From: Acidimicrobiaceae bacterium
GTDB taxonomy: Bacteria; Actinomycetota; Acidimicrobiia; Acidimicrobiales; Aldehydirespiratoraceae
NCBI GenBank assembly: GCA_009843735.1
Contig: VYCW01000008.1
Location: 1-56,912 of the forward strand
Length of the DNA: 56,912 bases
Direction of reading: 5' to 3'
Shown here: positions 18,395 through 45,902 of the stretch, in pieces
Layout of the letters: every line of letters begins with the position of its first letter
How positions within the stretch are numbered: position 1 is the stretch's first letter
Position numbers and translations under genes: made by a program
The notes under the pieces: model-generated
Database searches by the model: none
Seen by the model: the letters and a program-made list of their open reading frames with translations, nothing else
What the model was told of the DNA's origin: nothing

Positions 18395-18523
18395 GTTCCC
18401 AGTGTGGGCTCCGGCCCGGCGGAGCCCAATGGGGAATGTCCCTGAACCTTCCCTTAGGGCTGCCGCGGATGTCCGGGGTGATCCCCGGTGCCGTCGGCGA
18501 GCGGTCGTGTCATCATCTCTCCT

Positions 18524-21208: not shown

Positions 21209-21469
21209 TTAGCTGGCCTGGGACTCCGGAGCGAGGCTGGCCGCTACCGCTTCGAGCGTGTCGGCGACCGCCTCGAGATCGGTCTTCACCGGGGTCAGCA
21301 ACTCTCCCAGGGGCTCGGTCCGGTGGGCGATGGAGCGCACGCCCGAGGTGATGTTGCCCAGCGAGTCGTTCACGGCCCGTAGCACGATCACGACCCGCGT
21401 CAGGTAGTAGGCCAGCGCGGCCGCGATCACTAGGGCGATGACGATGGTGACGATCGCTGCGGCAGGCAT
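21209..21469 (-). CDS. Small membrane-anchored helical protein, type A
   Basis: An 86-aa protein with one N-terminal membrane helix (about 3-22) and a cytoplasmic amphipathic tail containing SLGNITSGVRSIA and VADTLEAVAASL. It is a clear paralogue of the protein at 43740-44003, which has SLGKVTFGVRAIE and IAGALEGVSA at the same places. Both copies sit in hydrogenase-linked operons behind a shared operator. A role in anchoring or organising the hydrogenase at the membrane is inference. Confidence 0.75.
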   Translation of the reverse strand: MPAAAIVTIVIALVIAAALAYYLTRVVIVLRAVNDSLGNITSGVRSIAHRTEPLGELLTPVKTDLEAVADTLEAVAASLAPESQAS

Positions 21470-21485
21470 CAGCTGGCTCCTCCGG

Positions 21486-21734
21486 TCATAGCAGCGGCCC
21501 CGCTGCGCCGACATAGCGCACGGCCAGGCCCTTCGCCGCGGAGACCAGGTCGCGGGTGTCGGCCACAGCCGGCAGCGGCTCGAGGTTCTGGTCCAGCCCG
21601 AGCCCGTGCTCGAGGATGTCGTCGGCGTAGCGCTTGATCTCCAGCGCGGGCCTGATCACCCGGTTGGCCAGCAGCAGCACGACCGGCACTACGGCCAGCA
21701 GCAGCACTGCGTTGCCGATCCACCAGAGCCACAT
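21486..21734 (-). CDS. Small membrane-anchored helical protein, type B
   Basis: An 82-aa protein with an N-terminal membrane helix (about 5-25) and a short helical tail. It resembles the small proteins at 44003-44278 and 44281-44535, sharing the LWWIG/LWWL opening, VVLLL, and an N..PL.AV.D segment. A ribosome-binding site GGGGAG 6 nt upstream favours ATG 21734 over ATG 21740. A TATGAT -10 element (21762-21767) and the palindrome at 21775-21795 lie upstream. Function unknown. Confidence 0.75.
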   Translation of the reverse strand: MWLWWIGNAVLLLAVVPVVLLLANRVIRPALEIKRYADDILEHGLGLDQNLEPLPAVADTRDLVSAAKGLAVRYVGAAGPLL

Positions 21735-21761
21735 AGTCATCTCCCCGTGTGCGCTGGGGCG

Positions 21762-21767
21762 ATCATA
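21762..21767 (-). promoter_or_regulatory. Candidate -10 element for the small membrane protein genes
   Basis: TATGAT on the minus strand lies 7 bp downstream of the palindrome at 21775-21795 and about 28 bp upstream of the start at 21734. No convincing -35 is seen; the palindrome occupies that place. Confidence 0.4.
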
Positions 21768-21774
21768 GTCGCGC

Positions 21775-21795
21775 CTAGATGCATTCTGCATCTAG
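21775..21795. promoter_or_regulatory. Operator palindrome, site 1 of 3
   Basis: Perfect 9-bp arms, CTAGATGCA and TGCATCTAG, are separated by TTC. The same architecture recurs at 29540-29560 and 44591-44611. All three sites lie in promoters of hydrogenase-linked operons. This site sits over the expected -35 region of the 21734 gene. Confidence 0.75.
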
Positions 21796-21827: not shown

Positions 21828-22562
21828 TCAGCTTGCAAAGCCCAGCGCTTCGACAAGGCTCTCCAATGCCGCCACGGCGGGGGCGCCGGGCTCGTGGTCG
21901 ACCGGCGACACCCCGAGCCGGTCGGCGGTGTCCACCGCCGGGTCGTCGGGGACCACCACCAGGGTCCGGCCGGCGAAGGCCTCGTCGATGCGGGCCCGGT
22001 CCTCGTCGTCTCCCACCTTGTTGGCCACGACCACTACCAGGCCCTGACGCTGCTCGTCGGCGACCGCGACGGCCCGGCGGGCCACGTCGATCGAGCGCAG
22101 CGTCGGCTCCACCACCACCACGGTGGCGTCCACCGACGCGCTGGCCAGCCGGGTCAGGGTGCCTATCCCAGCCTCTAGGTCGGCGACGACAGTGGTGGCG
22201 TCGTCATTCACGGAGCCGAGCAACTGCTCGGCCGACAGACCGCATCAAGGTCAACCGGGCTCGGGATTCTCGATGCGGGTGATCACCGAGAGGCGCACCC
22301 CGTCGGGGGCGTCGGTGCCGTAGCGGTCGAGGATGTCGTCCCAGGTGGGCGCATGGTCGGCTGCGCCGTCGCCGACCTCCTCGCGCAGGGTCAGGAGCCG
22401 CTCGGTCTCGGAGTCGCCGACCCCCAGCGACAGGCCGAGGTTGGGGTTGGTGTCGCAGTCGAGGGCGACCACCCGGGCGCCCCGGCGGCCCAGCGTGCGA
22501 GCCAGCACCGCGCTGGTGGTGGTCTTGCCGGCTCCACCCTTGCCCACAACGGCGATCTTCAT
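21828..22562 (-). CDS. CooC-family ATPase with Sec-X-Sec in place of the CXC motif (candidate selenoprotein)
   Basis: One reading frame of 245 codons from ATG 22562 to a TGA at 21828-21830, interrupted by in-frame TGA at 22251-22253 (codon 104) and 22245-22247 (codon 106). The upstream part has a deviant Walker A (GKGGAGKTT), and the downstream part DLEAG and VEPTLRS. Read through, the junction is PEPG-U-P-U-CGLSAEQLLG, aligning with AAAG-C-T-C-GGHATVRSLLG (Cys103, Cys105) of the paralogue at 33785. In CooC the CXC cysteines bind Ni or Zn at the dimer interface. A perfect hairpin at 22215-22232 starts its loop 19 nt after the second TGA, fitting a bacterial SECIS. Frame is kept on both sides, so a pseudogene is unlikely. 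Likely role: metal insertion or storage. A TTG at 22223 would give a useless C-terminal fragment. Confidence 0.8.
22214..22253 (-). promoter_or_regulatory. Candidate SECIS element and the two Sec codons of the CooC-like gene
   Basis: On the minus strand, the two TGAs are followed by GCCGAGC-AGUU-GCUCGGC, a perfect 7-bp stem plus an outer G-U pair. The apical loop begins 19 nt after the second TGA and 25 nt after the first, with G at loop position 2. Known bacterial SECIS rules ask for a loop 16-37 nt after UGA with a G among its first two bases. Confidence 0.75.
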
Positions 22563-23335
22563 CAGGCCACCTCCTCGCCGAGACCATAGAGCGACACCAC
22601 CCGGTCAACCAAGGCATCGACCGCTTGGGCGAGCGCGCCGTCGGGGGCCGCGTCCAGCGGGGCGGCGCCGCGGCGGTCGGCCCTTCCGGCGGTGCCGTCG
22701 TGGGGGACGACCGCGGCGGCCTCCAGGCCCAGGCGCTCCGAGACGCGGGCCGCGTCGGAGCCGTTGCGGACCTTGTTGACGACGAGCACGAGGCGCGCGG
22801 GCCCCCACCTCGCCCCGGAGAGACTGAGGAGGCGTCTTGCCGTGTGCGTCGACTTGACGGTCGGCTCGACCACCACGCACACGGTGTCGGCGTACCTGGC
22901 CCAGCCGAACATGGCCTGGCGGGTGCCGCCGGGGAGGTCGCCGACCAGGTGCCAGGAGTCCCGGTCGAGTTCCTCCACCACCTGGCTCCAGGCGTGCTGA
23001 GCCTGCTGAAGCCTCACCACATGGCCCCACAGGTTGCCGAACTGCAGGTAGCGGACACCGTCGGGGCATATCGCCGCGTACTGGTCCACGATGGCGGCCG
23101 CGTCCAGACCGGGCCGCAGCACCCAGCGGGGTCCCCCCTCCGGGCCGGCGACGACCACGTCGTCGGGTATCGGATGATCGTCCACGCCCACACCCAGGGA
23201 GTAGGGAAGCCCCGGCATCGGATCGGAGTCGAGCGCGAGCACGGGCTGGCCGCGGCGGGCCAGAAGCCGGGCAAATGTGCCCGCGATCGTCGACTTGCCG
23301 GCGCCACCCTTGCCGACGAACGCCACCCGGATCAT
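22562..23335 (-). CDS. CooC/MinD-type P-loop ATPase without the CXC motif
   Basis: A 257-aa paralogue with a deviant Walker A (VGKGGAGKSTIAGTFARLL), SDPMPGLPYSLG and VEPTVKSTHTARRL. Where relatives have CXC, this protein reads YLQFGNLWGHVV, so it probably lacks the metal site and may pair with the Sec-containing neighbour as an ATPase partner. ATG 23335 is chosen, because it gives the family-typical MIRVAFVGKGG start. It overlaps the next gene by 1 nt (TGATG) and lies 10 bp after the DsrE-like gene. Confidence 0.85.
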   Translation of the reverse strand: MIRVAFVGKGGAGKSTIAGTFARLLARRGQPVLALDSDPMPGLPYSLGVGVDDHPIPDDVVVAGPEGGPRWVLRPGLDAAAIVDQYAAICPDGVRYLQFGNLWGHVVRLQQAQHAWSQVVEELDRDSWHLVGDLPGGTRQAMFGWARYADTVCVVVEPTVKSTHTARRLLSLSGARWGPARLVLVVNKVRNGSDAARVSERLGLEAAAVVPHDGTAGRADRRGAAPLDAAPDGALAQAVDALVDRVVSLYGLGEEVA

Positions 23336-23345
23336 CGACGCCGGC

Positions 23346-23720
23346 TCAGCCTCCGACAAAGATCAGCTCCGAGGTCCCGTCGGCGACCTCGGTGAGGATC
23401 TCGCCCAGGAAGCGAAAGGTCGCACCGACACCGGCCGCCTCGGTCGCTGATACCCCACGGGCATCACTGGAGTACGGTCAAAACGACACCATGAAGGGCG
23501 CATCTGAGCCGGCGATCACCTTCTGGCGCACGTCTCGGCCCATCTCGGTGTCGGGGACCACATCGAGATCGGCCACCGACACGGCTTCACCAGCGAGGCG
23601 AACCTCCGCCTCCAGTCCGGCCGAGCTGGCGACGGTAGCGAAGTGATATGCACGGAACAGAGCGTCGATGTCTGTGCGGGGGTCGGCTGTCGTGAAGAAG
23701 ATCAGTTTGCGCCGGGTCAT
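23346..23720 (-). CDS. DsrE-family protein with selenocysteine (candidate selenoprotein)
   Basis: A 124-aa protein, if the TGA at 23478-23480 (codon 81) is read as Sec. The N-terminus (KLIFFTTADPRTDIDALFRAYHFATVASSAG) is typical DsrE/TusD. Before the TGA stands DAPFMVSF and after it PYSSDARGVSATEAAG, matching the family pattern C...A..RG in which this cysteine (Cys78 in TusD/DsrE) carries persulfide sulfur. The frame stays open 44 more codons, to a TGA at 23346-23348. A perfect 8-bp hairpin at 23448-23466 starts its loop 19 nt after the TGA. AGGAG precedes ATG 23720, which overlaps the transporter stop (ATGA). Sec-containing DsrE-like proteins have, to my knowledge, been reported from metagenomes. 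Role in sulfur or selenium transfer is inference. Confidence 0.82.
23448..23480 (-). promoter_or_regulatory. Candidate SECIS element and Sec codon of the DsrE-like gene
   Basis: On the minus strand UGAUGCCC-GUG-GGGUAUCA forms an 8-bp stem (one G-U pair) with a GUG loop. The loop begins exactly 19 nt after the TGA, the same spacing as in the CooC-like gene, and has G at position 1. Confidence 0.75.
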
Positions 23721-26479
23721 CGTCCACTCCTGTCGGTAGCTGAATTGTCTATCGCCACGCCCTCACAGTCCGAAACTTGGCCCCGCACCGCGGCATCGAT
23801 GAGAGCCTGGGTCTCAGCGTGCTCGGGCGTGGTCAGGAGTCGCACCGCGGGAGCGTCCTCGACGATTCGTCCCTCGCACAGCACCACGATCCGGTCGGCC
23901 ACCAGCCGGGCCAGGGAGATGTCGTGGGTGATGAACACCAGCGTGGCTCCCAGCGTCTCACGCACGGCGAGCAAGTGGGCAGCCACCGTGGCCCGCAAGG
24001 ATGCGTCGAGCATTGACGCCGGCTCATCCGCGACAATGAGCTGAGGGCTGGCGACAAGGGTCCGGGCGAGGGCGACACGCTGGCGCTGGCCGCCGCTGAG
24101 CGTGCCGGCATGGCGGTTGAGGAACCTCTCTACGGGTACCAACCCCAGCAGCTGCAGAGCCTCAGCCACCCGTGCGGCCCGCTCGTGGCGCCCCCTGCCC
24201 GCGATAGCCAGGGGCTCGCCCACCAGCCCAGCGACCGTCATGTTCGGGTGCAGCGATTCGTACGGATCCTGGAACACCATCTGGACTCGCCGTCTCAGCG
24301 CACTCAGGTGCCGCCTCGACAGGCCAGCGGTTCCCTTGCCGAGTAGTTCAACAGAGCCGGAGGTCGGCCGGGCCAATCCCAGCGCCAGCCTCGCGATTGT
24401 GGACTTGCCGGCCGCACTCCTGCCGATGATGGCAACGGACTCGCCAGCGCCGATCTCCAGGGAAACACCGTCCAGCGCGGTCACGTCGGGCCGCCCGCGG
24501 CGCCGACCCGGGTAGACGACCCGCACATCGTCGAGGCGCAGGGCCATCTGGCGCGCTTCGCGGGCGGTGGTCGACGCACTGCTCGGCGAGGCTGCCGCCA
24601 GGTCGTCTTCCGGACCCGGTAGGCCTCCGGAACTCGAGTCGACCGGAGCGTGGTGGCAGGCCACCATCACTCCCTGCACCGGACGCTCCACCGGCACGAC
24701 GCTGTCGCAATCGCCACGGCTGTGGGGGCACCGGGGAGCGAACGCGCAGCCGGGTGGGAGCTCCTTCGGATCGGGGACCTCGCCCGGCACCGGCCTCAGG
24801 CGGGCCGTAACCGCGCCTAGCGACGGGAAGGCTCCCAGCAGCATCGCCGTGTAGGGATGCTGGGGACGGCTGATCACGGCTCGGGCGGGGCCGGACTCCA
24901 CGACCCTGCCGCCGTACATCACTACGAGGTCGTCGGCGCGGGACGCCACCAGCGGCAGATCGTGGGATATCAACCACAGGTCGAAGTCGAGCCTCCGGCG
25001 CAGGTCGTCGAGGAGGTCCAAGATCGCCTGCTGGGTGACCACGTCGAGGCCCGTCGTCGGCTCGTCGGCGATGAGCAACTCGGGCCGGTTGGCGACCGCC
25101 ATGGCGATCACCACCCGCTGGCGCTGGCCGCCGCTCAGTTCGTGGGGGAAGGCTCGGTGGCGATCGAGGGGCAGCCCGACCTCGGACAGGAGGTCGCCGG
25201 CCCGCTCCGCCGCGGCGGCCACGGAGGCCAGGGCCGCCGACTCCGCTACCTGGTCGAGAACCGTCATCGTGGGGTCGAGCACGCTCATGGCGGCCTGGGG
25301 CACGATTGCCACGTCCCGACCCCGGATCCGCTCCAGACCCTGCCTTCCGAGCCGGCGCAGATCAATGTCGCCCAGCATCACCGCCTCGGCGCGGATGACC
25401 CCCGGGTGGGGGACGAGTCCCGGCACCGACACACCCAGAGTCGACTTGCCCGAACCCGACTCGCCGACGAGCCCCAGGACCCTTCCACGACCGACTCGCA
25501 GATCGGCTTCACGCACCACAGTCGCGCCGTCGAAGTCAACCGACATAGCGCGAACATCAAGGCGGACCTCCGGAGGGCACGGATCGGGAACCGCTTCAGG
25601 CAGCCGGCGCCGGCTCGGTGGCCTCCAGCCATGCCCGCCCAGCTGCGGATCGGCCAGCTCCTCGAAGGCGAACCCCACGAAGGCCAGCCCGACGATGAGA
25701 ACCGTGAGCGCAACCCCGGGCGGGACAATCCACCACAGCCATGCGTCGGTCAGGATGGCGCTTCCGTTGTTGGCGAAGTACAGCGTGGATCCCCAGCTGA
25801 TGCGGCCGGGATCGCCCAGACCGAGGAACGCCACCCCCGACTGCACGATCACTGCCACCGCGGCCGCTCGCACGAACTGCGAAACCAGCAGCGGTACGAG
25901 GCGCCAGAGAATGTGGACCGTCATGATCCGGGTCGAGCCCGCGCCCATCGCGTGAGCCGCTTCGGTGTGCCCGAACTCCCTGATCTTGAGGACCTGACCA
26001 CGCAACAGCCGAGCCGGCCGAGCCCATAGCACTCCGGCGATCAGCACGATCAGCACGTCGAGGCCACGCCCGAAATAGGCGGCCAATACAAGGACCAGCA
26101 CGAGGAACGGCAGCGAGAGGGTCAGGTCGACAACCCTCATGATCACTGCGTCCACCCAGCCTCGATGCCAGCCCGCGACCAGCGCGGCCGCCGCTCCGAC
26201 CACGGTCGCGACCACGGCTGCCACCAAGCCCACCCAAAGCGACACCCGGGCTCCGTACACCAGCTGCGACCAGAGGTCGCGCCCGAGATCGTCGGTGCCC
26301 AGAAGATGCTCCGACGACGGCGCCTCGTACGGTAAGCCGGTGGAGCGGTCGGGCGGGTGCGCAGCCAGAAGGTCGGCGAAGACGGCCGCGCCCAGCACGA
26401 GCAGCAGCATCAACAAGCCGGCGACGGCCAGCACCTTCGTGCTGGGCCGGAGCTGTTCCCGGTATCTGCTCAGACCCAT
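23717..26479 (-). CDS. ABC transporter: permease-ATPase-ATPase fusion (Dpp/Opp/Nik type)
   Basis: A 920-aa protein fusing three normally separate subunits. Residues about 1-285 are a DppC/NikC-like permease (LLGTDDLGRDLWSQLVYGARVSL, EAAHAMGAGSTRI). About 310-600 is ATPase 1: Walker A GESGSGKST, signature ELSGGQRQRV, Walker B LLIADEPTTGLD, then the Cys-containing oligopeptide extension CAFAPRC. About 650-905 is ATPase 2: Walker A GRSAAGKST, signature TLSGGQRQRV, LIVADEPASMLD. It overlaps the other permease by 10 bp and the DsrE-like gene by 4 bp. Family members carry peptides or nickel. Nickel is favoured only by the hydrogenase and CooC context. Confidence 0.85.
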   Translation of the reverse strand: MGLSRYREQLRPSTKVLAVAGLLMLLLVLGAAVFADLLAAHPPDRSTGLPYEAPSSEHLLGTDDLGRDLWSQLVYGARVSLWVGLVAAVVATVVGAAAALVAGWHRGWVDAVIMRVVDLTLSLPFLVLVLVLAAYFGRGLDVLIVLIAGVLWARPARLLRGQVLKIREFGHTEAAHAMGAGSTRIMTVHILWRLVPLLVSQFVRAAAVAVIVQSGVAFLGLGDPGRISWGSTLYFANNGSAILTDAWLWWIVPPGVALTVLIVGLAFVGFAFEELADPQLGGHGWRPPSRRRLPEAVPDPCPPEVRLDVRAMSVDFDGATVVREADLRVGRGRVLGLVGESGSGKSTLGVSVPGLVPHPGVIRAEAVMLGDIDLRRLGRQGLERIRGRDVAIVPQAAMSVLDPTMTVLDQVAESAALASVAAAAERAGDLLSEVGLPLDRHRAFPHELSGGQRQRVVIAMAVANRPELLIADEPTTGLDVVTQQAILDLLDDLRRRLDFDLWLISHDLPLVASRADDLVVMYGGRVVESGPARAVISRPQHPYTAMLLGAFPSLGAVTARLRPVPGEVPDPKELPPGCAFAPRCPHSRGDCDSVVPVERPVQGVMVACHHAPVDSSSGGLPGPEDDLAAASPSSASTTAREARQMALRLDDVRVVYPGRRRGRPDVTALDGVSLEIGAGESVAIIGRSAAGKSTIARLALGLARPTSGSVELLGKGTAGLSRRHLSALRRRVQMVFQDPYESLHPNMTVAGLVGEPLAIAGRGRHERAARVAEALQLLGLVPVERFLNRHAGTLSGGQRQRVALARTLVASPQLIVADEPASMLDASLRATVAAHLLAVRETLGATLVFITHDISLARLVADRIVVLCEGRIVEDAPAVRLLTTPEHAETQALIDAAVRGQVSDCEGVAIDNSATDRSGR

Positions 26480-27486
26480 CTCGCGCCTGCCCGTCGCACA
26501 CGGGGATCAAGAAGCGGGTAGAGCAGGTCGGCGAGGAGGTTCGCGCCGATGGCGATGAGCGACAGCAGCAGAAAGACCGCCTGCAGCACCGGGTAGTCGC
26601 GGGCCCGCACCGCGTCAAAGGCAAGCGAACCGAGGCCCGGATAGGAGAACACGCTCTCCACGACGGTCGCTGCGCCCACCAGAGTGGAGAATCCCAGGAG
26701 CGCCACGGTGGAAACCGGGACCATGGCGTTGCGGGCTGCGTGGCGTCGCACGCCCCGGTCGGCTAGGCCCTTGGCGCGGGCCATGAAGACGTAGTCCTCG
26801 CTCAGCTCCGACACCATCGCCGAGCGGGCCACCACGAACACCGATCCCAGACCCACGAACGTGAGGGTGACCGCCGGCATCACCAGTCGCTTTCCGGCAT
26901 CGAGGATCCAGGCCCAGCCCGTCAAGGCCTCCGGCGACACCGCCCCGTAGACCGGCAGCCACTCGAGCTGGACCGAGAAGACCAGCAGCAGCATCAGTCC
27001 CACGAAGAACGCCGGGAGCGCGTCCAGAGCCAGCACGCCGGCCAGCAGCGAGACGTCGCGGCGGGAGCCTCGACGCCAGCCGGCCGCGAATCCCAGCGCA
27101 ACACCCAGGATCGTGGACACCGCCACGGCCGTCCCCACCAGCAGCAACGACCACCAGAGCCGCTCGGTGACAACCTCCGACACCGGCCTGCCATCCCGTA
27201 CCGAGATGCCGAGATCGCCCTGGGCCAGGTTGCCCAGGTAGCTGGTGAACTGCTGGGTGGCGGAGCCGTCCAGGTCGAAACGCTCTAGCATCGACTCGCG
27301 CACAGCATCTTCGACCGTCCCGGCCTCGGGCGGTACCAGGTAGTCGACAGGATCGCCCGGAGCGAGCCGGGGAAGCGCGAAGTTCACCACCAGTGCGGCC
27401 AGGATCACCGCCGCGTACTGCGACGCCAGCCGGACCAGGCGCGACGACGAGCGGTCCGCCAGCCGCCTCAATGGCGGCCCCGTCAT
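26470..27486 (-). CDS. ABC transporter permease (DppB/NikB type)
   Basis: A 338-aa inner-membrane permease with about six helices. It has the family motif around the cytoplasmic EAA loop (DYVFMARAKGLADRGVRRHAARNAMVPV) and the N-terminal FALPRLAPGDPVDYL. It is the partner of the fused permease in the next gene and would form the membrane channel with it. ATG 27486 follows the binding-protein gene closely. Substrate is not readable from sequence; nickel is inferred from context. Confidence 0.87.
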   Translation of the reverse strand: MTGPPLRRLADRSSSRLVRLASQYAAVILAALVVNFALPRLAPGDPVDYLVPPEAGTVEDAVRESMLERFDLDGSATQQFTSYLGNLAQGDLGISVRDGRPVSEVVTERLWWSLLLVGTAVAVSTILGVALGFAAGWRRGSRRDVSLLAGVLALDALPAFFVGLMLLLVFSVQLEWLPVYGAVSPEALTGWAWILDAGKRLVMPAVTLTFVGLGSVFVVARSAMVSELSEDYVFMARAKGLADRGVRRHAARNAMVPVSTVALLGFSTLVGAATVVESVFSYPGLGSLAFDAVRARDYPVLQAVFLLLSLIAIGANLLADLLYPLLDPRVRRAGARWV

Positions 27487-27502
27487 GGGAGCGGTGGTCG
27501 GC

Positions 27503-29497
27503 TCAGTCTTCGACGGTCCCCTCCCGGCCGCGGCGTCGCACGACGACGAACGCCGCCACCGCCGCTGCAACGATCACGAGCACCACCACGAACGCGACCG
27601 TGCCGCTGGCGCCGCCGTCGTCGGCAGCCCCGGTATCGGCGGCCGCGGTGGGCTCGTCGGGATCAGGCGTGGCCGCTCCGGCGTCCTCAGTCGCGGTCCC
27701 GTCGTCCGCCGATGCGGCACTGGATGCGTCTGCATCGCCGGCATCGCCGCTTGAGTCGTCAACGCCCTCTGCGGCGGGCTCCTCGACCGCAGCCTGATCT
27801 TGCTCGGGCTCCGCGTCGACAGCCTCGGCGGCCTCCTCCGCAGCAGCCTCCTCGGCAGCAGGCTCGGGTGCCTCAGAGCCGGCTGCGTAGGGCGCCAGGA
27901 ACGAGCGCTTGGTGAACACGCCGTGGCCCGGGTCGCTGATCCAGCCGTCGTAGGCGTCGGGCCGGTAACCCCAGCGGCCGTCGGGGTAGTACAGGACGAC
28001 CGCAGGAGCTTCGGCGGCGAATATCTCCTGGGCCTGCCCGATCAGGGTGAGCTTCTCGTCGATCGGCGCGTCCAGAGCATCCTCGAGCACCGCGTCGAAG
28101 TCGGGGTTGGCGTAACCGCTGAAGATGCCGCCCACTCCCCGGCCGGGAGTATGGAAGAAGAAGAACAGGTGGTCGGGGTCGGCGTGGGCGTGCGACTCGA
28201 ACACCGCGATGAACATCTCCACCTTCGGCGGACCGTCCGGACCTGGACGCCGGGCCGCGGTGATGGCCGGCGGGTCGAGAGGCTCGACCGTGATGTCCAC
28301 GCCGATGGCCGACAGCTGCTCGGCCACCAGTTCCCCGGAGCGGATCTGGGGCGGGGCGGCCGCGTTGACTAGCAGCGTGAACTCCAGCGGAGCACCGTCG
28401 GCACTGCGGCGCACCCCTCCGTCGCCCAACGGATACCCGGCCGCGTCGAGCATCGAGTTGGCGCCGTCGACGTCGAAGGCATGCCCTCCGACAGGATGGG
28501 CCCAGGGCGAGTCGGGATGGGTCCAGGTGTCGTTGCCGGGACGGCCCATGCCGCCCTCGACGATGTCGACTATGGCCTGCACGTCGAGGGCCATGCTCAT
28601 GGCCTTGCGCACGGCCGGGTCCCTGAGGATGGGCTTGCGGGTGTTGAACATCAGGTACAGCGACTGCATGCGGTTGCCGGTTGCCACCGCGACTTCGTCG
28701 TTCTCCTGCATCCGGGGCACCAGCGGCGCCGGGAGGTTGCGGGTCACGAAGTCGAGTTCACCGGTCTGGAGCCCGGCGAAGGCAGCCTGGGCGTCCCTGA
28801 CGACGGGCATGATCAGCGTGTCGACCAGCGGCGGGCCCAAGAAGTAGTCGGGGTTGGCCTCCAGGCGGTAGGAGACGCCCGGGTCGTACTCGACCATCAC
28901 GAAGGGCCCGGTGCCGACCGGGAGCGATGTGGCATCGGCGCGGGGATCCTCCACGCCCTCCCAGATGTGCTTGGGAAGGATCGGAATGTCGCCGCCGGGG
29001 AGCAGCTTGAAGGTCGTCACCGGATCCTGGAAGGTGATCTCGACGGTGGCGCCGTCGACCACGGAGGCCGACTCGAACACCGGATGGTCGTACACGTGAT
29101 GGCCGTAGCGTCCCGGCCCCCCGTCGTCCGAGAAGTACTGGAAGGTGAAGGCCACGTCGTCGGCGGTGAACGGCGTGCCGTCGTGCCACAGGACGTCCTC
29201 GCGCAAGGTGACCGTCCAGGTGCGGAAGTCCTCGGAGGGCTCGGCGCCGGTGGCCAGCCAGGGTTCGGGGTCGAGGCGGCTCTGCGACCAGAAGAGGGTG
29301 TCGTACACCAGCATCGTGAAGTCGTGGGTCAGCGGCAGCGCCTGGGGCACGATGAACGGATTGAGGTTCTTCTCAGCCGCGTGCAGACCCACGCGGACCA
29401 CGATGTCGTCGTCGTCCTGCGCGGCCGCTAGCGGCGCCAGCGCAAAACTGAACAATGACAGGATGAGAGTGAGAATGATGATTCGATGGCGAAGCAT
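27503..29497 (-). CDS. ABC substrate-binding protein, family 5, with C-terminal membrane anchor
   Basis: A 664-aa protein with signal peptide MLRHRIIILTLILSLF... ending near AAAQ and an SBP_bac_5 body (LREDVLWHDGTPFTADDVAFTFQY, KAMSMALDVQAIVDIV). A long Ala/Glu/Asp-rich linker (about 545-620) leads to a C-terminal membrane helix (VAFVVVLVIVAAAVAAFVVV) and RRRGRE stop-transfer. The domain is therefore tethered by its C-terminus, not by a lipobox. It is the first gene of the uptake operon, behind operator site 2. Family members bind peptides or nickel complexes (NikA). ATG 29497 is chosen for the signal peptide; GTG 29524 would extend it by 9. Confidence 0.85.
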   Translation of the reverse strand: MLRHRIIILTLILSLFSFALAPLAAAQDDDDIVVRVGLHAAEKNLNPFIVPQALPLTHDFTMLVYDTLFWSQSRLDPEPWLATGAEPSEDFRTWTVTLREDVLWHDGTPFTADDVAFTFQYFSDDGGPGRYGHHVYDHPVFESASVVDGATVEITFQDPVTTFKLLPGGDIPILPKHIWEGVEDPRADATSLPVGTGPFVMVEYDPGVSYRLEANPDYFLGPPLVDTLIMPVVRDAQAAFAGLQTGELDFVTRNLPAPLVPRMQENDEVAVATGNRMQSLYLMFNTRKPILRDPAVRKAMSMALDVQAIVDIVEGGMGRPGNDTWTHPDSPWAHPVGGHAFDVDGANSMLDAAGYPLGDGGVRRSADGAPLEFTLLVNAAAPPQIRSGELVAEQLSAIGVDITVEPLDPPAITAARRPGPDGPPKVEMFIAVFESHAHADPDHLFFFFHTPGRGVGGIFSGYANPDFDAVLEDALDAPIDEKLTLIGQAQEIFAAEAPAVVLYYPDGRWGYRPDAYDGWISDPGHGVFTKRSFLAPYAAGSEAPEPAAEEAAAEEAAEAVDAEPEQDQAAVEEPAAEGVDDSSGDAGDADASSAASADDGTATEDAGAATPDPDEPTAAADTGAADDGGASGTVAFVVVLVIVAAAVAAFVVVRRRGREGTVED

Positions 29498-29539
29498 GGC
29501 GGCGGAAGCTAGATACACCCTCACGCAGCGTCAAATCAA

Positions 29540-29579: not shown

Positions 29580-31841
29580 ATGAGGCGCCGACGCCTTCGC
29601 ATTGCCGGCACCGTCCAGGGCGTGGGGTTTCGACCCCACCTGCACCGGCTGGCCCGGAGCCTGTCGCTTACCGGTGCCGCGGGCAACGACGACGACGGCG
29701 TGTGGTGCGAGGTCCAGGGAGGCCAAGCCGATCTGGACGACTTCGTGGTGCGGGTCGCCGCGGAGGCCCCTCCGCTGGCCCGGGTGGACTCGGTCCGCTC
29801 CTCAGAGGTGCCTGCCGTCGAGGGCGAGCGGGAGTTCTCGATCGCGGCCAGCGGGTCCGGTTCCGGCACGGTCGCCGGCACCGTTCCCCCCGATGTCGCC
29901 GCCTGTTCGTCGTGTCTCGCCGAGGTCGCGGATCCCGGCGGGCGCCGGTACCGCTACGCGTTCACCTGCTGCACCGACTGCGGCCCCCGCTACACGGTCG
30001 TGCAGAGCCTGCCGTATGACCGCGAGCGCACCTCGATGGCGGTCTTCGAGCTTTGTGCGACCTGCGAGGCCGAGTACCGCGACCCCAACGACCGGCGCCA
30101 CCATGCCCAGGCGGTGTGCTGTCCCGGCTGCGGTCCGGCGCTGTCGCTGCGGCCGATGACCGGGGAGGCCTTCGACGCCGATCCCATCGAAGGGGCGGTC
30201 GCCCTGCTCGAGGCGGGCAGCATCGTCGCCGTCAAGGGTGTCGGCGGCTACCAACTGGCGTGCCGGGCCGGCGACAGCGCAGCGGTGACCCGGCTGAGAC
30301 GGCGCAAGCACCGGGAGGAGAAGCCGTTCGCGCTGCTGGTCGCCTCGGTCGACGCGGCCCGAGAGCTCGTCGAACTCGACGACCTGGCGGTGCGAGCCCT
30401 GACCGGGCCCGAGGCGCCCATAGTGCTCGCGCCGCGGCGGGAGTCGGCCCGGGTCGCCCGCGAGGTGGCACCCGACACCCGACTGCTTGGAGTGATGCTG
30501 CCGGCCACGCCGTTGCATGCCCTCCTGGCGGATGCGGCGGGCGTGCCGCTGGTATGCACCAGCGGCAACCGGTCGGACGAGCCAATCGTCACCGACGACG
30601 CCCGGATGGTGCCGGAACTAGGCGACATCGCCGACGCCGTCATGGCCCACGACCGGGTGATCGAGCGCCGGGCCGACGACTCGGTGGGGCACGTTGTGGC
30701 GAGTGACTTCCAGTTGCTGCGACGGGCTCGCGGCTACGCGCCCGGCACCGTGCGGCTCGACCGCGACGGCCCGCCCGTGCTGGCCGTGGGCGCGGAGCTA
30801 AAGAGCACGGTGTGCCTGGCCCTGGGTGCCGACGCCCACATGTCCGTGCACCTCGGCGACCTGGAGCATCCGGCCGCGCTAGCCGCCTTTGAGGCTGCGG
30901 TGGCCGACCTGCTAGAGCTGACCCGGGCCGCACCGGAGCTGCTGGTCCACGACCTCCATCCCGAATACCTGTCCACCAAGTTCGCGGCCAGCAGCGACCT
31001 CGCTCCCCGGCTGGGGGTGCAGCACCACCATGCCCACCTGGCCTCCTGCCTGACCGACGCCGGTTTCCGCGGCCCGGCCATCGGCGTGATGTTCGACGGG
31101 ATGGGATGGGGCACCGACGGCACCCTGTGGGGCGGCGAGATCCTCGTGGGCGACGCCGGCGGCTACCAACGGTTCGCCCACCTTCAGCCGGTGCCCATGC
31201 CAGGAGGCACCGCCGCCATCCGCCATCCCTGGCGCATGGCACTGGCCCATCTGTTCGAGACGTTCGGCCCGGACGTGCCTGCCATCCCCTCGCTGGCCGA
31301 CCACCGGGCGGAGGCCGAGCATGTCCTGGCCCAGTGCCGTCCGGGCCAGTCGATCCTGACCACCTCGATCGGCCGGCTCTTCGACTCGATGGCGGCCCTG
31401 TGCGGCATCGCCCTATCGGCGACCTACGAGGGTCAGGCCGCGATCCGGTTCGAGCAGGCCGCCGGTCCCGACGTCAGGCGGTACCCCGTCGAGATCACTA
31501 CGGGTGAACCGGCCGTGATCGAGTTCTCGCCGCTGATCCACGCCGTCGTCTCGGACCTGCTGGCCGGGCAGCCGCCTGCGCTGATCGCGGCGTCGTTCCA
31601 CCGGTGGGTCGCCGACGCGGCCGTAACCGCGAGCCGTCAGGCCCGTGAGTCGACCGGGCTGTCAGCAGTGGCCCTGTCGGGCGGCGTGTTCCAGAACCGC
31701 CGCCTGGTGGAGTTGCTGGTGCCCGACCTCGAGAGGGCGGGTTTCGAGGTCCTCCGCCACCGGCAGGTCCCGCCCAACGACGGCGGGATCGCCCTGGGCC
31801 AAGCAGCCATAGGCCGGGCCACTCTGGCCGCCCGCAGCTAG
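29580..31841 (+). CDS. hypF: Carbamoyltransferase HypF, [NiFe]-hydrogenase maturation
   Basis: A 753-aa protein that makes the thiocarbamate on HypE from carbamoyl phosphate, the source of the active-site CN ligands. Domains: acylphosphatase-like (VQGVGFRPHLHRLA), two zinc-finger motifs (CSSC...CTDCGP and CATC...CCPGCGP), YrdC-like (VKGVGGYQLACRA, HREEKPFALLV) and the Kae1-like C-terminus (HDLHPEYLSTKFA, HHHAHLASC, MFDGMGWGTDGTLWGGE, LSGGVFQNRRL). Full family length. It is split from the other hyp genes by about 7 kb, but shares their operator motif. Confidence 0.96.
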   Translation: MRRRRLRIAGTVQGVGFRPHLHRLARSLSLTGAAGNDDDGVWCEVQGGQADLDDFVVRVAAEAPPLARVDSVRSSEVPAVEGEREFSIAASGSGSGTVAGTVPPDVAACSSCLAEVADPGGRRYRYAFTCCTDCGPRYTVVQSLPYDRERTSMAVFELCATCEAEYRDPNDRRHHAQAVCCPGCGPALSLRPMTGEAFDADPIEGAVALLEAGSIVAVKGVGGYQLACRAGDSAAVTRLRRRKHREEKPFALLVASVDAARELVELDDLAVRALTGPEAPIVLAPRRESARVAREVAPDTRLLGVMLPATPLHALLADAAGVPLVCTSGNRSDEPIVTDDARMVPELGDIADAVMAHDRVIERRADDSVGHVVASDFQLLRRARGYAPGTVRLDRDGPPVLAVGAELKSTVCLALGADAHMSVHLGDLEHPAALAAFEAAVADLLELTRAAPELLVHDLHPEYLSTKFAASSDLAPRLGVQHHHAHLASCLTDAGFRGPAIGVMFDGMGWGTDGTLWGGEILVGDAGGYQRFAHLQPVPMPGGTAAIRHPWRMALAHLFETFGPDVPAIPSLADHRAEAEHVLAQCRPGQSILTTSIGRLFDSMAALCGIALSATYEGQAAIRFEQAAGPDVRRYPVEITTGEPAVIEFSPLIHAVVSDLLAGQPPALIAASFHRWVADAAVTASRQARESTGLSAVALSGGVFQNRRLVELLVPDLERAGFEVLRHRQVPPNDGGIALGQAAIGRATLAARS

Positions 31842-33784: not shown

Positions 33785-34549
33785 ATGAAGATCGGGGTTG
33801 TGGGCAAGGGCGGCGTGGGCAAGACCACGCTCAGCGCGCTGCTGGCCCGTTCGCTGGCCGACCGCGGTCGCCGGGTGCTGGCCGTGGACACCGACTCCAA
33901 CCCCAACCTGGGACTGTCGCTGGGGCTTGACCCCGTCCAGACCGAGGCCTTGCCTACGGTCCCCCGGTCGATCGTCGTCGGCTCCCGAGGCGACCTGACC
34001 GTCGCCGAGCTGATGGCCGACTACGCGGCCGAGACCCCGTCGGGGGTGGCCGTGATGTCGGCGCTGCGAGTCGCCGAGGCCGCCGCGGGATGCACCTGCG
34101 GCGGCCACGCCACCGTCAGGAGCCTGCTGGGCGAGGCCCTCGACACCGAGACCGACGACACCATCGTCGACATGGAGGCCGGCATCGAGCATCTCAGCCG
34201 CTCCGGCGGGACGCTGGCCCATGCCGATGTGCTGGTGCTGGTCATGGAGCCCAGCCTCAAGGCGGTCATCACCGCCCGCCGAACGATCTCCCTGGCCCGC
34301 GATCTGGGCATCGGAGCGTGGATCGGCGTGGGCAACAAGGTCAGCGACGACCACCAGGACCTGCTGGCCCGGCTGTGCGCCGACAACGAGGTTCCGCTCG
34401 ATGTGGTGATCCCGCTCAGCGCCGACGTGGTCGAAGCCGACCGGCTGGGCACCCCGCTCGCGCCCGGCGAGGCCGACAGCGTGTGGGCCGCCGTCGAGTC
34501 TCTAACCGACAAGCTCCTGGAGACCGCCAGCGTCCCAGTACGGCAGTAG
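33785..34549 (+). CDS. CooC-family ATPase with CXC motif
   Basis: A 254-aa P-loop ATPase with deviant Walker A VGKGGVGKTTLSALLARSL, TDSNPNLGLSLG, the metal motif AGCTCGGHATV (Cys103, Cys105), DMEAGIEHLSR and VMEPSLKAVITARR. CooC proteins use ATP to load nickel into carbon monoxide dehydrogenase; no CODH genes are visible here, so hydrogenase nickel supply is more likely. This is the ordinary-cysteine counterpart of the Sec-containing gene at 21828. It stands alone, divergent from rmuC. Confidence 0.88.
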   Translation: MKIGVVGKGGVGKTTLSALLARSLADRGRRVLAVDTDSNPNLGLSLGLDPVQTEALPTVPRSIVVGSRGDLTVAELMADYAAETPSGVAVMSALRVAEAAAGCTCGGHATVRSLLGEALDTETDDTIVDMEAGIEHLSRSGGTLAHADVLVLVMEPSLKAVITARRTISLARDLGIGAWIGVGNKVSDDHQDLLARLCADNEVPLDVVIPLSADVVEADRLGTPLAPGEADSVWAAVESLTDKLLETASVPVRQ

Positions 34550-38698: not shown

Positions 38699-39790
38699 TC
38701 AGCAAATCCGGGGCAGGGGGTCGCCGACCAGCATGTCGACGATCCTGGTGCCGCCGAAGCCGGTGCGCACCAGCACCAGGCCCGGGTGCTCCCCGGTGAC
38801 GTTGCCCACGACGCAGGCGTCGGCGCCGGCCTCGCAGCTTCGCATGGCCTCGACCGCGGTCTCGGCGTCGGTGGCGGGAACCACCGCCAGCATCTTGCCC
38901 TCGTTGGCGATGTACAGCGGATCGAGTCCTAGCAGCTCGCACGCCCCGGCCACCGCTCCCCGCACCGGCAGGGCCCGCTCGTCCAACTCCACCCCCAGCC
39001 CGGATGCCGCGGCCAACTCGTTGCAGATGGAGGCCACCCCGCCGCGGGTCGGGTCCCGCAGCCACCGGGTGGCCGGCACCGCGTCCAGCAGGGCCGCTAC
39101 CAGTTGATGCAGCGGCGCGGTGTCCGACGCCACATCGGCGGCCAGGGCCAGGTCGCCGCGGGCCACCATCACGGCCACGCCGTGGTCGCCGATCGTGCCG
39201 GAGAGCACCAGCGCGTCCGACGGCTGCACCGACGCCGCGTCCAGCTGTGTCCCGTCTCTCACGAACCCGATCCCGGTGGTGGTGATGTAGCAGCCGTCGG
39301 CCGCGCCCCGCTCCACCACCTTGGTGTCTCCGGTGACCACATGGACGCCCGCGGCCACCGCCGCCCGGGCCACGTCGTCCACGATGGCTCTCAGCTCTTC
39401 GACCTCCAATCCCTCTTCGAGCACCAGCGACACCGTCAGCGCGGCGGGCTCGGCCCCCATGGCCGCCAGATCGTTGATGGTGCCGTTGACGGCCAGATCT
39501 CCGATGGAGCCGCCGTTGAAACGCCGCGGGGTCACCACGAAGGCGTCGGTGGTGACGGCCAGCCGGCGATCGTCTCCGATCTCCAGCACCGCGCCGTCGT
39601 CGAGAGCGTCGAGCACCGGGTTGGAGAAGGCGGGGCGGATGACGGCCTCGATGAGTGACTGGCTGGCCCTTCCACCCGCCCCGTGGGCCATCGTGATGGT
39701 CTCGTCGGCGAGCTTGGGGGTGCGCCGCCGCCAGGACTCGACCCGGGCCAGCACGGCCTCGCGTGCCTCGAAGTCGTCGCCAGACGCCAT
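38699..39790 (-). CDS. hypE: HypE, hydrogenase cyanide-ligand synthesis
   Basis: A 363-aa PurM/ThiL-like ATPase that dehydrates its own C-terminal thiocarboxamide to thiocyanate, giving CN for the Ni-Fe site. Signs: TMAHGAGGRASQSLIEAVI, NDLAAMGAEPAALTVSLVLEEGL, GDTKVVERGAADGCYITTTGIG, DPTRGGVASICNELA, and the obligatory C-terminal PRIC. Its ATG overlaps the hypD stop (ATGA). Confidence 0.96.
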   Translation of the reverse strand: MASGDDFEAREAVLARVESWRRRTPKLADETITMAHGAGGRASQSLIEAVIRPAFSNPVLDALDDGAVLEIGDDRRLAVTTDAFVVTPRRFNGGSIGDLAVNGTINDLAAMGAEPAALTVSLVLEEGLEVEELRAIVDDVARAAVAAGVHVVTGDTKVVERGAADGCYITTTGIGFVRDGTQLDAASVQPSDALVLSGTIGDHGVAVMVARGDLALAADVASDTAPLHQLVAALLDAVPATRWLRDPTRGGVASICNELAAASGLGVELDERALPVRGAVAGACELLGLDPLYIANEGKMLAVVPATDAETAVEAMRSCEAGADACVVGNVTGEHPGLVLVRTGFGGTRIVDMLVGDPLPRIC

Positions 39791-40917
39791 CAGGTGGCGT
39801 GGACCGGGATGCGCGACCGGGTCGAGTACCGCCCGTAGTTGTAGTAGGCGGCGCAGGCGCCCTCCGAGGACACCATGCAGGTGCCGATCGGCGTCTCGGG
39901 GGTGCAGGCCGTTCCGAAGACCTTGCACTCCCACGGCCGCAGCGCTCCCTTGAGCACCTCGCCGCACTGGCAGGCCTTCGGGTCCGCCACCCGCACGCCG
40001 GGGACCTCGTAGCGCAGCTCGGCGTCCCACGGCGCGAATTCGGGCGCGATGGCCAGAGCGCTCTGGGCGATGAACCCGAGACCCCGCCACTCGAAGTGCG
40101 GCCTCACCACGAAGACCTCGCGCAGCAGCTCCAGCGCCCGGGAGTTGCCCTCGCCGGACACGACCCGCCGGTACTGGTTCTCGACCTCGCAGCGTCCCTC
40201 GGCGAGCTGGCGCAGCAGCATCAGCACCGCCTGCAGGATGTCCACCGGCTCGAAGCCGGCTGTGACCAGGGGCCGGCCGTACTGCTGGGGCACGAACCGG
40301 TACGGATGGGTGCCGATCACGGTGGAGACGTGTCCGGGGCCCAGGAACCCGTCGAGGTCGAGCCCGGGCGAGTCGAGGATGGCCTTCAGCGGCGGGACGA
40401 TGGTGACGTGGTTGCAGAACACGCTGAAGTTGTCGACGTTGCGCTCGCGGGCCTGCAGCAGCGTGACCGCGGTCGAAGGCGCCGTGGTCTCGAAACCGAC
40501 GGCGAGGAACACGACCTGGCGGTCGGGGCTCCTTTCTGCGAGCGCGAGCGCGTCCAGCGGCGAGTACACGACGCGGACATCGGCGCCGCCGGCCTTGGCC
40601 TCCAGCAGGGTCGACTCCCCGCCCGGCACCCGCATCATGTCCCCGAAGCAGCACATGGTCACTCCGTCGGCGCAGGCGACCGCGACGGCGTCGTCGACGC
40701 GGCCCATCGGGATGACACAGACCGGGCACCCCGGCCCGTGGATGAGCTCGATGCTGTCCGGGAGCAGGGCCTCGATTCCGTGCCGGTAGATGGCGTGGGT
40801 GTGACCCCCGCAGACCTCCATGAACTTCCGGTGCGGTTGGTCGGCGGCCGCACCGGCGATGTCAGCCAGCAGACGGCGGGCTGCCTCGGGGTCGCGGAAC
40901 TCGTCGACGTACTTCAC
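39790..40917 (-). CDS. hypD: HypD, Fe(CN)2CO assembly scaffold
   Basis: A 375-aa iron-sulfur protein that assembles the Fe(CN)2(CO) unit with HypC. It has CGGHTHAIYRHG, HGPGCPVCVIPMGRVDDAV, FAVGFETTAPST-like (VFLAVGFETTAPSTAV) and the C-terminal cysteines for the 4Fe-4S cluster (CQCGEVLKGALRPWEC, GTACTPETPIGTCMVSSEGACAAYY). The start is GTG 40917, overlapping the stop of the SIS-domain gene. Confidence 0.96.
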   Translation of the reverse strand: MKYVDEFRDPEAARRLLADIAGAAADQPHRKFMEVCGGHTHAIYRHGIEALLPDSIELIHGPGCPVCVIPMGRVDDAVAVACADGVTMCCFGDMMRVPGGESTLLEAKAGGADVRVVYSPLDALALAERSPDRQVVFLAVGFETTAPSTAVTLLQARERNVDNFSVFCNHVTIVPPLKAILDSPGLDLDGFLGPGHVSTVIGTHPYRFVPQQYGRPLVTAGFEPVDILQAVLMLLRQLAEGRCEVENQYRRVVSGEGNSRALELLREVFVVRPHFEWRGLGFIAQSALAIAPEFAPWDAELRYEVPGVRVADPKACQCGEVLKGALRPWECKVFGTACTPETPIGTCMVSSEGACAAYYNYGRYSTRSRIPVHAT

Positions 40918-41960
40918 GGCGCCGCCTCCGATGCCCCCGCGGAGGCCGCGAGCGCGCCCGCGGCCCGCTCGCACAGTGCGCTCATGAGCGCGGCCTGGGC
41001 CTCCTGGATGCGATGCACCGACATCGACTGTACGACGAGGTTGTGGTCCACGCTCGGGTGATCCGTGAACGACCCGCCGCCGTAACCGCTTAGACCCACC
41101 GTGGCCAGTCCCATTGCCGAAGCCTGGTCGAAGGCGGCCAGCAGGTTCCGGGAGGCGCCGCTGGTGCTGCAACCCACCAGCACGTCGCCGGGCGCGGCGA
41201 AGGCGTCGAGCTGGCGCGAGAAGATCCGCTCGGCGCCGAGGTCGTTGGCCAGCGCGGTGGCCACCGCGTAGTCGGCGGAGAGCGACTCGGCCGGGACACC
41301 CCGGGCTCGTAGCAGCCGGGCCAGCCGGGCGGCGTCGGTGGCGCTTCCCCCGTTGCCCATGGTCAGCACCCGGCCGCCGGACCCGGCGGCCCGCCCGATG
41401 ACCGTGGCGGCCTGTGCCAGCGCGGCCCCGTTGGACTCCTGCGACTGCCGGGACAGCTCCTCGGACTCCCGGACCTTGGCCTCGGCCGACGCCCGGAGCG
41501 ACTGGCGCAGCGCAGCCTCGTCCTCCTCGGCCGCGTCCAGGAACGGGTACAGGAACCCGGTGGAGTCGCCGCCAGCCGGCGCTGAGCTGCCGATCAGCCC
41601 GGGATGCTCGAGCGCGACCTGGACCAGTTCCCACAGCACGTGGTAGCTGCGGACGATGGCGGTGTCGCTCTGATCGGTCGAGATGAACAGGTCGGCGGCA
41701 ACGCCGTCAGGCCCGATGACCAGGGTGGCGTCCGTCGAGACGGCCGCGCCGGCTCCGGATGCGGCCACCGCCGCGGCCAGGGGGCGGGTGCCGGCCACCA
41801 CGGGATGGACGAACTCGACGGCCACGTGGTGGGCATGGTCGGGCGCTCCGGGGGCCCACACACTCAGCCGGCTCCCGGCGGTGAAGGCCCGGGCCAGCCA
41901 CATCGCAGCCTCGACCGGGTCGCGGCCGCAGTCGATTGCCGGCTCGGAGCCCGTGCTCAT
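40914..41960 (-). CDS. SIS-domain protein (GmhA-like) in the hyp operon
   Basis: A 348-aa protein. The C-terminal half (about 165-345) is an SIS sugar-isomerase domain with VLTMGNGGSATDAARLARLLRARG and VLVGCSTSGASRNLLAAFDQA, most like phosphoheptose isomerase. The N-terminal half carries no family I recognise, but ends in a DUF-like helix (AEAKVRESEELSRQSQESN). It sits between hypC and hypD with 4-bp overlaps both sides. No other heptose gene is near. A hydrogenase-related role is implied by operon position only. Confidence 0.82.
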   Translation of the reverse strand: MSTGSEPAIDCGRDPVEAAMWLARAFTAGSRLSVWAPGAPDHAHHVAVEFVHPVVAGTRPLAAAVAASGAGAAVSTDATLVIGPDGVAADLFISTDQSDTAIVRSYHVLWELVQVALEHPGLIGSSAPAGGDSTGFLYPFLDAAEEDEAALRQSLRASAEAKVRESEELSRQSQESNGAALAQAATVIGRAAGSGGRVLTMGNGGSATDAARLARLLRARGVPAESLSADYAVATALANDLGAERIFSRQLDAFAAPGDVLVGCSTSGASRNLLAAFDQASAMGLATVGLSGYGGGSFTDHPSVDHNLVVQSMSVHRIQEAQAALMSALCERAAGALAASAGASEAAP

Positions 41961-42226
41961 GGCAGGTCGCTTGTGAAGGCCTCGATCTCTTCGTCGTACA
42001 CCGACCCGAGCTCCCGCATGAACGCCAGCGTGTCGGCTGCTTCGTCCGCATCGATCTTGGACATGGCGAAGCCGACGTGCAGCAGCACCCACTCGCCGAC
42101 GTCGAGTCCCTCGTCGTCGACCATGATGGTGTTGACCTCCCGCTGCGCCCCGTCCACATCGACGGTGGCGGTGTGGGGACCCGACGGCTCCAGCTCGACG
42201 ACCCGGGCGGGAATCCCGACGCACAT
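41957..42226 (-). CDS. hypC: HypC, hydrogenase maturation chaperone
   Basis: An 89-aa protein with the essential N-terminal Cys2 (MCVGIPARVVELE), the beta-barrel segment VNTIMVDDEGLDVGEWVLLHVGFAMSKIDADEA, and a helical tail. HypC carries the Fe(CN)2CO unit between HypD and the large subunit. Overlaps ATGA with its neighbours. Confidence 0.94.
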   Translation of the reverse strand: MCVGIPARVVELEPSGPHTATVDVDGAQREVNTIMVDDEGLDVGEWVLLHVGFAMSKIDADEAADTLAFMRELGSVYDEEIEAFTSDLP

Positions 42227-43005
42227 CAGACGCCGGCCTCCGCTCGTGCAACCGATGGTCCGGCCACGAGAGCGCCGAACAGGGTGTCCAGCGCTCCGAC
42301 CACGGGGTCGCCGGGGGCGTGATCGAGCAGCGGCCGGGCCGCGCCGTCCGCTTCGAGCACGGCCTCGGACCAACCCAGGATGCCGGCCAGCTCCAGCCCG
42401 TGGCGATCGCAGTACTCCTCGATGGCATCGGAGTCCGACGGCTGCCGGCACTTGTTGGCCACCACCGCCACCCGGCCGATCGAGGTCTCGGCCGCCAGCG
42501 AAGCCTGAAGCCTCACCGCCTCCAGTGATCGGTAGTAGGGCTCGGCCACGAGCAGCAGCACGTCGGAATGCCGTGCCGTCCCCCGGCTCAGGTGCTCCGG
42601 GGACGCTTCGAGGTCCAGCAGCGTGACCGTGCCGGGGGCAGTGCCGAGATCGGCGAGGAAGGCGCTCACGGCGGCGTGCGCGGAGCACATGCAGCCCTCG
42701 TCGGCGTGCTGGGGCATCCCCATGCGCACGAGGCGCACACCGTCGGGCGCGGGCGCGCTGTGCCGGTCGAGAACCTCGTCCACCGGGGCCGTCAGCCGCG
42801 GCCCGTCGAAACGGCGCGACACCAGCGACGGGGGCAGGAACGGAGCCACCGAGGTCCCCTCTACACCGATGGCCGCGTGAAGGTTGGGGTTGGTGTCGCC
42901 GTCGATGGCCACCACCCGGAGGCCCGACCTGGCCATGAGCCGGGCCGCGGTCGCGCAGATGGTGGTCTTTCCGGCGCCGCCCTTGCCCGCGACCGCGATC
43001 CTCAT
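42226..43005 (-). CDS. CooC-family ATPase with CXC motif, hyp operon copy
   Basis: A 259-aa P-loop ATPase with Walker A AGKGGAGKTTICATAARLM, GDTNPNLHAAIG, the metal motif EGCMCSAHAAV (Cys105, Cys107), DLEASPEHLSRG and VAEPYYRSLEAVRL. It sits directly before hypC, where HypA/HypB are usually found in other hyp operons, which suggests that it supplies nickel. ATG 43005 gives the family-typical start, overlapping the PadR stop. Confidence 0.9.
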   Translation of the reverse strand: MRIAVAGKGGAGKTTICATAARLMARSGLRVVAIDGDTNPNLHAAIGVEGTSVAPFLPPSLVSRRFDGPRLTAPVDEVLDRHSAPAPDGVRLVRMGMPQHADEGCMCSAHAAVSAFLADLGTAPGTVTLLDLEASPEHLSRGTARHSDVLLLVAEPYYRSLEAVRLQASLAAETSIGRVAVVANKCRQPSDSDAIEEYCDRHGLELAGILGWSEAVLEADGAARPLLDHAPGDPVVGALDTLFGALVAGPSVARAEAGV

Positions 43006-45898: not shown

Positions 45899-45902
45899 TC
45901 GA

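Follow-up and report, generated by a model that had tools for sequence, protein, structure and literature searches.

Can a gene whose frame is crossed by two UGA codons, both placed exactly where a nickel ATPase carries its metal-binding cysteines, encode a working selenocysteine (Sec) protein, and what would such a protein do? This question is raised by a locus in a 56,912-nt stretch of an Acidimicrobiaceae bacterium (contig VYCW01000008.1 of assembly GCA_009843735.1; hereafter the window), for which the original prediction, made from the letters alone, had proposed a CooC-family ATPase with a Sec-X-Sec metal motif (Table 1). The gene forms a single 244-aa frame on the minus strand, in which codons 104 and 106 are TGA, as is the terminal codon 245, and its protein reads MKIAVVGKGGAGKT...ENPEPG-U-P-U-CGLSAEQLL... 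Alignment with CooC1 places both in-frame TGAs on the CXC cysteines, as had been claimed, and the flanks are indeed intact and in frame. The numbering offered for the two paralogues is also right: Cys103/105 belongs to the protein that starts at 33785, and Cys105/107 to its counterpart that starts at 43005. Codon 107, absent from that prediction, is a conserved Cys in the rows of orthologues, and the motif should thus be written U-P-U-C-G. The prediction likewise passes over the CXC-less CooC-like partner gene, which shares one base with the start of the Sec gene (Table 1).

Table 1. Features of the window discussed in the text, in window positions.
Feature	Position	Strand	Basis or remark
selC (tRNASec), 3′ half, cut by contig start	1..51	+	100% to close relative's tRNASec
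Two small genes, membrane proteins by eye	21209..21791 (21486-21791, 21209-21514)	-	in 21/28 and 20/28 relatives' loci, respectively
Putative Sec-containing CooC-like ATPase, 244 aa, motif U-P-U-C-G at residues 104-108	21828..22562	-	reading frame, orthologues, profile alignment, model
bSECIS-like hairpin, 8 bp stem, loop AGUU	22214..22233	-	gap to loop 19 nt from UGA106, 25 nt from UGA104
UGA codon 106, predicted second Sec	22245..22247	-	alignment; opposite CooC1 Cys114; UAG in five genomes of Modestobacter's family
UGA codon 104, predicted first Sec	22251..22253	-	alignment; opposite CooC1 Cys112
CXC-less CooC-like ATPase partner, start inferred	22562..23335	-	stop TGA overlaps ATG of Sec gene by one base (TGATG)
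Nickel/peptide-type ABC transporter: ATPases and permease, permease, binding protein	23717..29524	-	family matches
HypF	29580..31841	+	family match
CooC-like ATPase, Cys-Thr-Cys; some relatives Sec-Thr-Cys	33785..34549	+	sequence comparison
HypE-like (AIRS domains), start inferred	38699..39793	-	domain match
HypD, start inferred	39790..40920	-	family match
HypC-like	41957..42226	-	MCxGxP start by motif alone
CooC-like ATPase, Cys-Met-Cys	42226..43005	-	sequence comparison
[NiFe] hydrogenase, small (44663-45898) and large (45903-47807) subunits	44663..47807	+	large subunit: Cys in ligand motifs
NifU-like protein (48540-49112), HycI-type maturation protease (49558-50121)	48540..50121	+	family matches

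The distribution of the two stops among relatives was tabulated, a check that had been suggested together with the prediction. A search of 149 genomes, the source genome included, gave a match at E 1e-20 in 29, and among the 26 matches of at least 59% identity that cover the motif, both codons are TGA in 22, one is TGA in three, and neither in one; two more high-identity matches (G038, G006) were found but are fragments short of the motif. A scan of species genomes returned 42 loci, of which 28 were taken as orthologues (L056-L083, 48-96% identity, all Actinomycetota), many belonging to genomes already in the 149-genome set. Throughout both orthologue sets stops are confined to the two CXC codons, and a distant relative of 34% identity (L086) has one stop elsewhere in the alignment. 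From a phylum sample of 396 genomes searched at E 1e-45, 12 matched, the source genome among them; the rest contributed ten more Sec orthologues and the genome G638, which has three genes of the Cys type. All 40 Sec orthologues of the set used for hairpin comparison (described below), and the ten later ones too, have Sec at position 106, while codon 104 is TGA in some and TGC or TGT in others, and 13 of the 40 are C-x-U, with the second Sec only. Downstream of the TGAs, dN/dS lies at 0.09-0.28 in eight within-genus comparisons, hence purifying selection acts on this part, and neither the random stops nor the downstream decay named beforehand as signs against the prediction were seen. One Cys-type orthologue (L083, 6001-6707) changes frame near codon 57, through a frameshift or an assembly error.

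Behind codon 106, at a spacing of 19 nt from UGA106 and 25 nt from UGA104, a hairpin with a stem of 6-8 base pairs and the loop AGUU is found in 40/40 Sec genes and 0/8 Cys genes of a 48-gene set (27 UxU, 13 CxU, and 8 CxC), from which rows below 45% identity, rows without motif coverage, and identical copies had been dropped. The 12-base core of this hairpin occurs in 50/50 Sec loci, that is, these 40 and the ten from the phylum sample (one protein is encoded by both L073 and L156), and is missing on the sense strand in 11/11 Cys genes. The Leu pair encoded within the hairpin is TTG-CTC in 40/40 genes, TTG making up 7% of the 1019 Leu codons that were pooled, and the outer pairs covary (GCC/GGC, GCT/AGC, CCT/GGG). 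A synonymous-shuffle fold test, weaker than this direct comparison, gave mean z values of -1.77 for UxU, -0.95 for CxU, and +0.46 for CxC genes, with a modest number at p < 0.05 (16/27, 1/13, and 1/8, respectively); for L137, L139, and L159, the minimum-energy fold of 57 bases shows another structure although the hairpin sequence is present. The Cys-type orthologue L041, from a genome (G095) with selA and tRNASec, has a changed hairpin with the loop AACU, reading GAGCAACTGCTC; this is perhaps a relic, and the gene looks like a recent Sec-to-Cys change.

The machinery for Sec insertion was sought in the source genome, whose assembly is 84.6% complete and divided into 140 contigs. The absence of selA, selB, or selD would have spoken against the prediction, and all three genes are present, selA adjoining selB. 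The selD gene (L018, G000:C15:8228-9142) has itself one in-frame TGA, in SHGAG-TGA-GCK, which we take to be the usual Sec site of selD, and thus looks like a Sec gene as well. The first tRNASec search of the source genome gave nothing above cut-off, two of its hits being tRNA-Gly and tRNA-Ser; no tRNASec was found in five stretches, each 20 kb long, that surround selA/selB and selD, and an Rfam scan of the window at gathering score returned 0 matches. The contig starts inside selC, leaving only its 3′ half, and the Rfam and ARAGORN searches missed the tRNASec for this reason. Among 40 genome entries (G090 and G158, having the same coordinates, are probably one genome), selA is present in 28/29 with a Sec orthologue, 2/7 with Cys genes only, and 4/4 of the genus without an orthologue, the corresponding values for tRNASec being 26/29, 2/7, and 3/4. 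No tRNASec was found in three Sec-gene genomes (G011, G080, G159), in the last of which selA was not found either, and two genomes (G095, G149) have Cys-only genes despite Sec machinery.

A natural change of codon bears directly on how the stop is read. In Modestobacter sp. DSM 44400, whose motif reads Cys-Pro-Sec(UAG)-Cys, codon 106 is TAG instead of TGA, and in 112 genomes of Modestobacter's family, this one included, eight matched, of which five have one TAG, two have one TGA, and one is partial. All five TAG genomes possess a tRNASec with the anticodon CUA (CTA in the DNA); these tRNAs are labelled tRNA-Pyl by ARAGORN, yet score above the Rfam tRNASec cut-off. The anticodon is UCA (TCA in the DNA) in the TGA genome G230 and in G232, the genome with the partial match, and the tRNASec search found none in the other TGA genome, G227. 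In Geodermatophilaceae, CUA tRNASec and UAG-Sec codons have been published for FDH, UGSC, and AhpC, a system alike in codon and anticodon, and CooC-like genes are not named in the passage that describes it (PMC5330540). That codon and anticodon change in step is difficult to account for other than by Sec insertion.

Taken on sequence comparison, insertion of Sec at both UGAs is strongly supported. Two in-frame stops would by themselves fit a pseudogene, an assembly error, or a real stop giving a fragment of 103 residues, and the frameshift in the Cys-type relative L083 could be cited on the same side; however, the recurrence of the same stops across orthologues puts chance and sequencing error out, and with purifying selection behind the TGAs and the joint TAG/CUA change, we reject this explanation as having next to no probability. 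Nor is much left for a different suppressor tRNA, for example one carrying Cys, or for a reassigned TGA. The residue aligned in relatives is Cys, as such a tRNA would lead one to expect, but TGA terminates 12 of the 15 named genes of the window and is thus an ordinary terminator here, with no general reassignment, and SelA, SelB, SelD, a partial tRNASec, and a conserved SECIS-like hairpin are all at hand; we regard this as extremely improbable.

Sec codons at this site are shared by three further CooC-like subfamilies. Twelve fetched paralogues (L165, L167-L177) have one TGA each at the CXC place, giving U-T-C in four, U-T-G/W in six, and U-G-G in two; another gene, G059:C57 (L178), had been listed with one TAG and has no stop within its alignment. 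At a start 15 nt behind the TGA, a position picked after looking at these paralogue sequences, a stem of 5 bp or more can form in 10/10 U-T-C and U-T-G/W paralogues and in 0/16 Cys-type paralogues, and the minimum-energy folds of several paralogues (L168, L171, L174, L175) lack it. A tree was built from 80 rows, of which 54 have Sec; on it, no fewer than nine changes of the Sec label are required, seven of them forced by well-supported branches. Some long branches meet in this tree, and its deep joins are unsure.

What kind of ATPase is it? The best solved relative of the family profile is CooC1 (3kje, E 2.6e-46), with both Sec positions opposite its C-Y-C (Cys112/Cys114), and the sequence combines GKGGxGKT and a CXC, here UxU, at the place known from CooC1 with a MinD/SIMIBI fold. 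The structure model has a mean pLDDT of 89.6, falling to 64 over residues 101-110, and Foldseek ranked MinD, FleN, and CooC1 first, with NifH-type proteins among the fold relatives. Matches to 18 NCBIfam families were obtained, all of them MinD/ParA/NifH-like and under their cut-offs, with no selenoprotein or HypB family among them; the Sec ATPase has no match to HypB (TIGR00073) over cut-off. Structure 3vx3, presumably that of the ATPase-type HypB of Thermococcus kodakarensis, matches the family profile only over residues 5-38. Profile, fold, and orthologue comparison together thus support a CooC-like ATPase with Sec-X-Sec at its metal motif. Cys112 and Cys114 of CooC1 bind Zn or Ni at the interface of two monomers, and a slow ATPase activity has been published for CooC1 as well (PMC6006190). 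CooC1 of Carboxydothermus hydrogenoformans (3kje, 3kjg-3kji), a Ni-inserting ATPase for CO dehydrogenase (CODH), shares the fold, the deviant Walker A, and the CXC site; it differs in having Cys-Tyr-Cys and serving CODH, whereas the gene described here has Sec-Pro-Sec-Cys, lies in a hydrogenase island, and overlaps a partner gene lacking the CXC. A Pfam scan of 40 window ORFs detected hydrogenase and maturation genes but no CODH family, and the CooC label should therefore be used with care.

The island (Table 1) contains, besides the transporter, the Hyp proteins, and the hydrogenase subunits, a SIS protein; beside it lies a long ORF with a PspC domain (16778-19669, minus strand). The start of the HypC-like protein has what we take to be the HypC motif. 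The large subunit has as its nearest solved relative HofG (5aa5, E 2.3e-153), which we assume to be the actinobacterial-type hydrogenase of Ralstonia and to be oxygen-tolerant. In the loci of the relatives, of 3.6-12.7 kb each, the CXC-less partner stands beside the orthologue in 26/28, missing in L064, which is cut, and in L072, and at least one hydrogenase or maturation gene occurs in 15/28. Loci of the genus extend only to the transporter, a longer stretch of G010 includes hydrogenase genes, and Amycolatopsis marina has hydrogenase genes on the same contig as its Sec-family gene; the 12.7 kb around the L072 orthologue contain neither partner nor hydrogenase gene. HypB was not detected over cut-off in the source genome, nor HypA in the window by its CxxC-CxxC motif. 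Over the wider set, HypB passes the cut-off in 5/26 genomes with an orthologue and in 0/5 without, so its lack is not specific, and four genomes (G054, G079, G128, G155) have the Sec gene and HypB together, in which the Sec ATPase is not simply a replacement of HypB.

From the hydrogenase island, the scarcity of HypB, and the precedent of the Thermococcus ATPase, nickel delivery to the hydrogenase emerges as the likeliest role, and we put the probability that the gene encodes a selenoprotein, a CooC-like ATPase delivering Ni to the [NiFe] hydrogenase of the island in the manner of CooC1, at roughly 0.7. In such a scheme, SelB, held by one hairpin just downstream, would insert Sec at both UGAs, giving a MinD-fold ATPase whose metal-site CXC would be Sec-Pro-Sec followed by Cys. 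Most likely the protein would work like CooC1: the selenolates would take up Ni(II), and ATP binding and hydrolysis would change the dimer, releasing the metal to the large subunit encoded in the same island, a job done elsewhere by the GTPase HypB. The ATPase may act as a homodimer or with its overlapping partner; against the plain homodimer counts the presence, next door, of a family member that lacks the CXC cysteines, and as 13/40 Sec orthologues are C-x-U, the four selenolates per nickel originally envisaged cannot be a requirement of the whole family. Selenium is softer and more acidic as a ligand and can be oxidised reversibly, properties that could keep the site usable when oxygen is present. 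A wider proposal would have Actinobacteria loading HofG-type (atmospheric-hydrogen) hydrogenase through a Ni site of up to four selenolates, along with Cys107, at a CooC-like dimer interface, one SECIS decoding two UGAs one codon apart, and selenium recruited in several CooC-like subfamilies at the first, second, or both positions; in this full form it is tentative, and we lean against it.

The same selenoprotein could serve a different chemistry. U-P-U-C might be a redox switch that forms a selenenylsulfide with Cys107 or between subunits and detects or repairs oxidation in the course of maturation, while binding metal only secondarily or not at all: a third conserved Cys stands beside the two Sec positions, the C-P-U-C of many relatives puts a Cys three residues before Cys107, like a redox CxxC, the site of the U-T-G paralogues offers a single Sec without a second ligand, and the hydrogenase is nearest to HofG, as noted presumably of an oxygen-tolerant type. 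Yet the site in question is the metal site of CooC1 and nickel genes abound in the island, and we hold the switch to be unlikely. Still more improbable, in our estimate, is an ATPase of the island with a cargo other than nickel, such as another metal or an Fe-S or ligand precursor, for which the nickel-type transporter and the nickel enzyme would be odd neighbours, even though four CooC-like genes each in the window, L065, and L075 suggest divided labour and NifH-type proteins are among the fold relatives.

Nickel delivery by a Sec-containing ATPase has several partial parallels. CobW is, as we understand it, a P-loop GTPase of the G3E class. Nearest in kind is the CobW-related selenoprotein (NF041053; PMC13188914 Table 1), by its name a metallochaperone-type NTPase with Sec, which differs in belonging to another NTPase class and, as listed there, in having one Sec in a UxxC motif rather than UxU. 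The ATPase-type HypB of Thermococcus kodakarensis is likewise a P-loop ATPase for [NiFe] hydrogenase maturation that replaces the GTPase HypB, and the available text makes no mention of selenocysteine (PMC9164220). In [NiFeSe] hydrogenases, Sec is a nickel ligand of hydrogen metabolism situated in the active site of the enzyme (PMC13188914), whereas in the window the hydrogenase site is Cys and Sec falls in an accessory protein. That no selenoprotein of the CooC kind has been described, as had been stated at the outset, holds within the literature searched: among the 119 prokaryotic selenoprotein families in the table of a 2026 review, no entry carries the name CooC, MinD, or ParA or has a UxU motif (PMC13188914), and no CooC or metallochaperone selenoprotein was found among the literature matches listed, a search with subscription papers and preprints outside its scope. 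In term searches, the 'CooC' matches of PMC5424206 are the word 'cooccurrence,' and PMC12013277 brought no gain on a CooC selenoprotein.

A metal-trafficking ATPase with Sec-X-Sec would be an addition to the known selenoproteins, and one that connects selenium supply to nickel-dependent hydrogen metabolism. Usual gene calling stops at UGA, and proteins of the Sec type would consequently be cut short. The locus offers a natural test of one SECIS serving two nearby UGAs, and the Sec/Cys pairs found in nature (UxU, CxU, UxC, and CxC) may be used as a probe of what selenium is worth at a metal-handover site.
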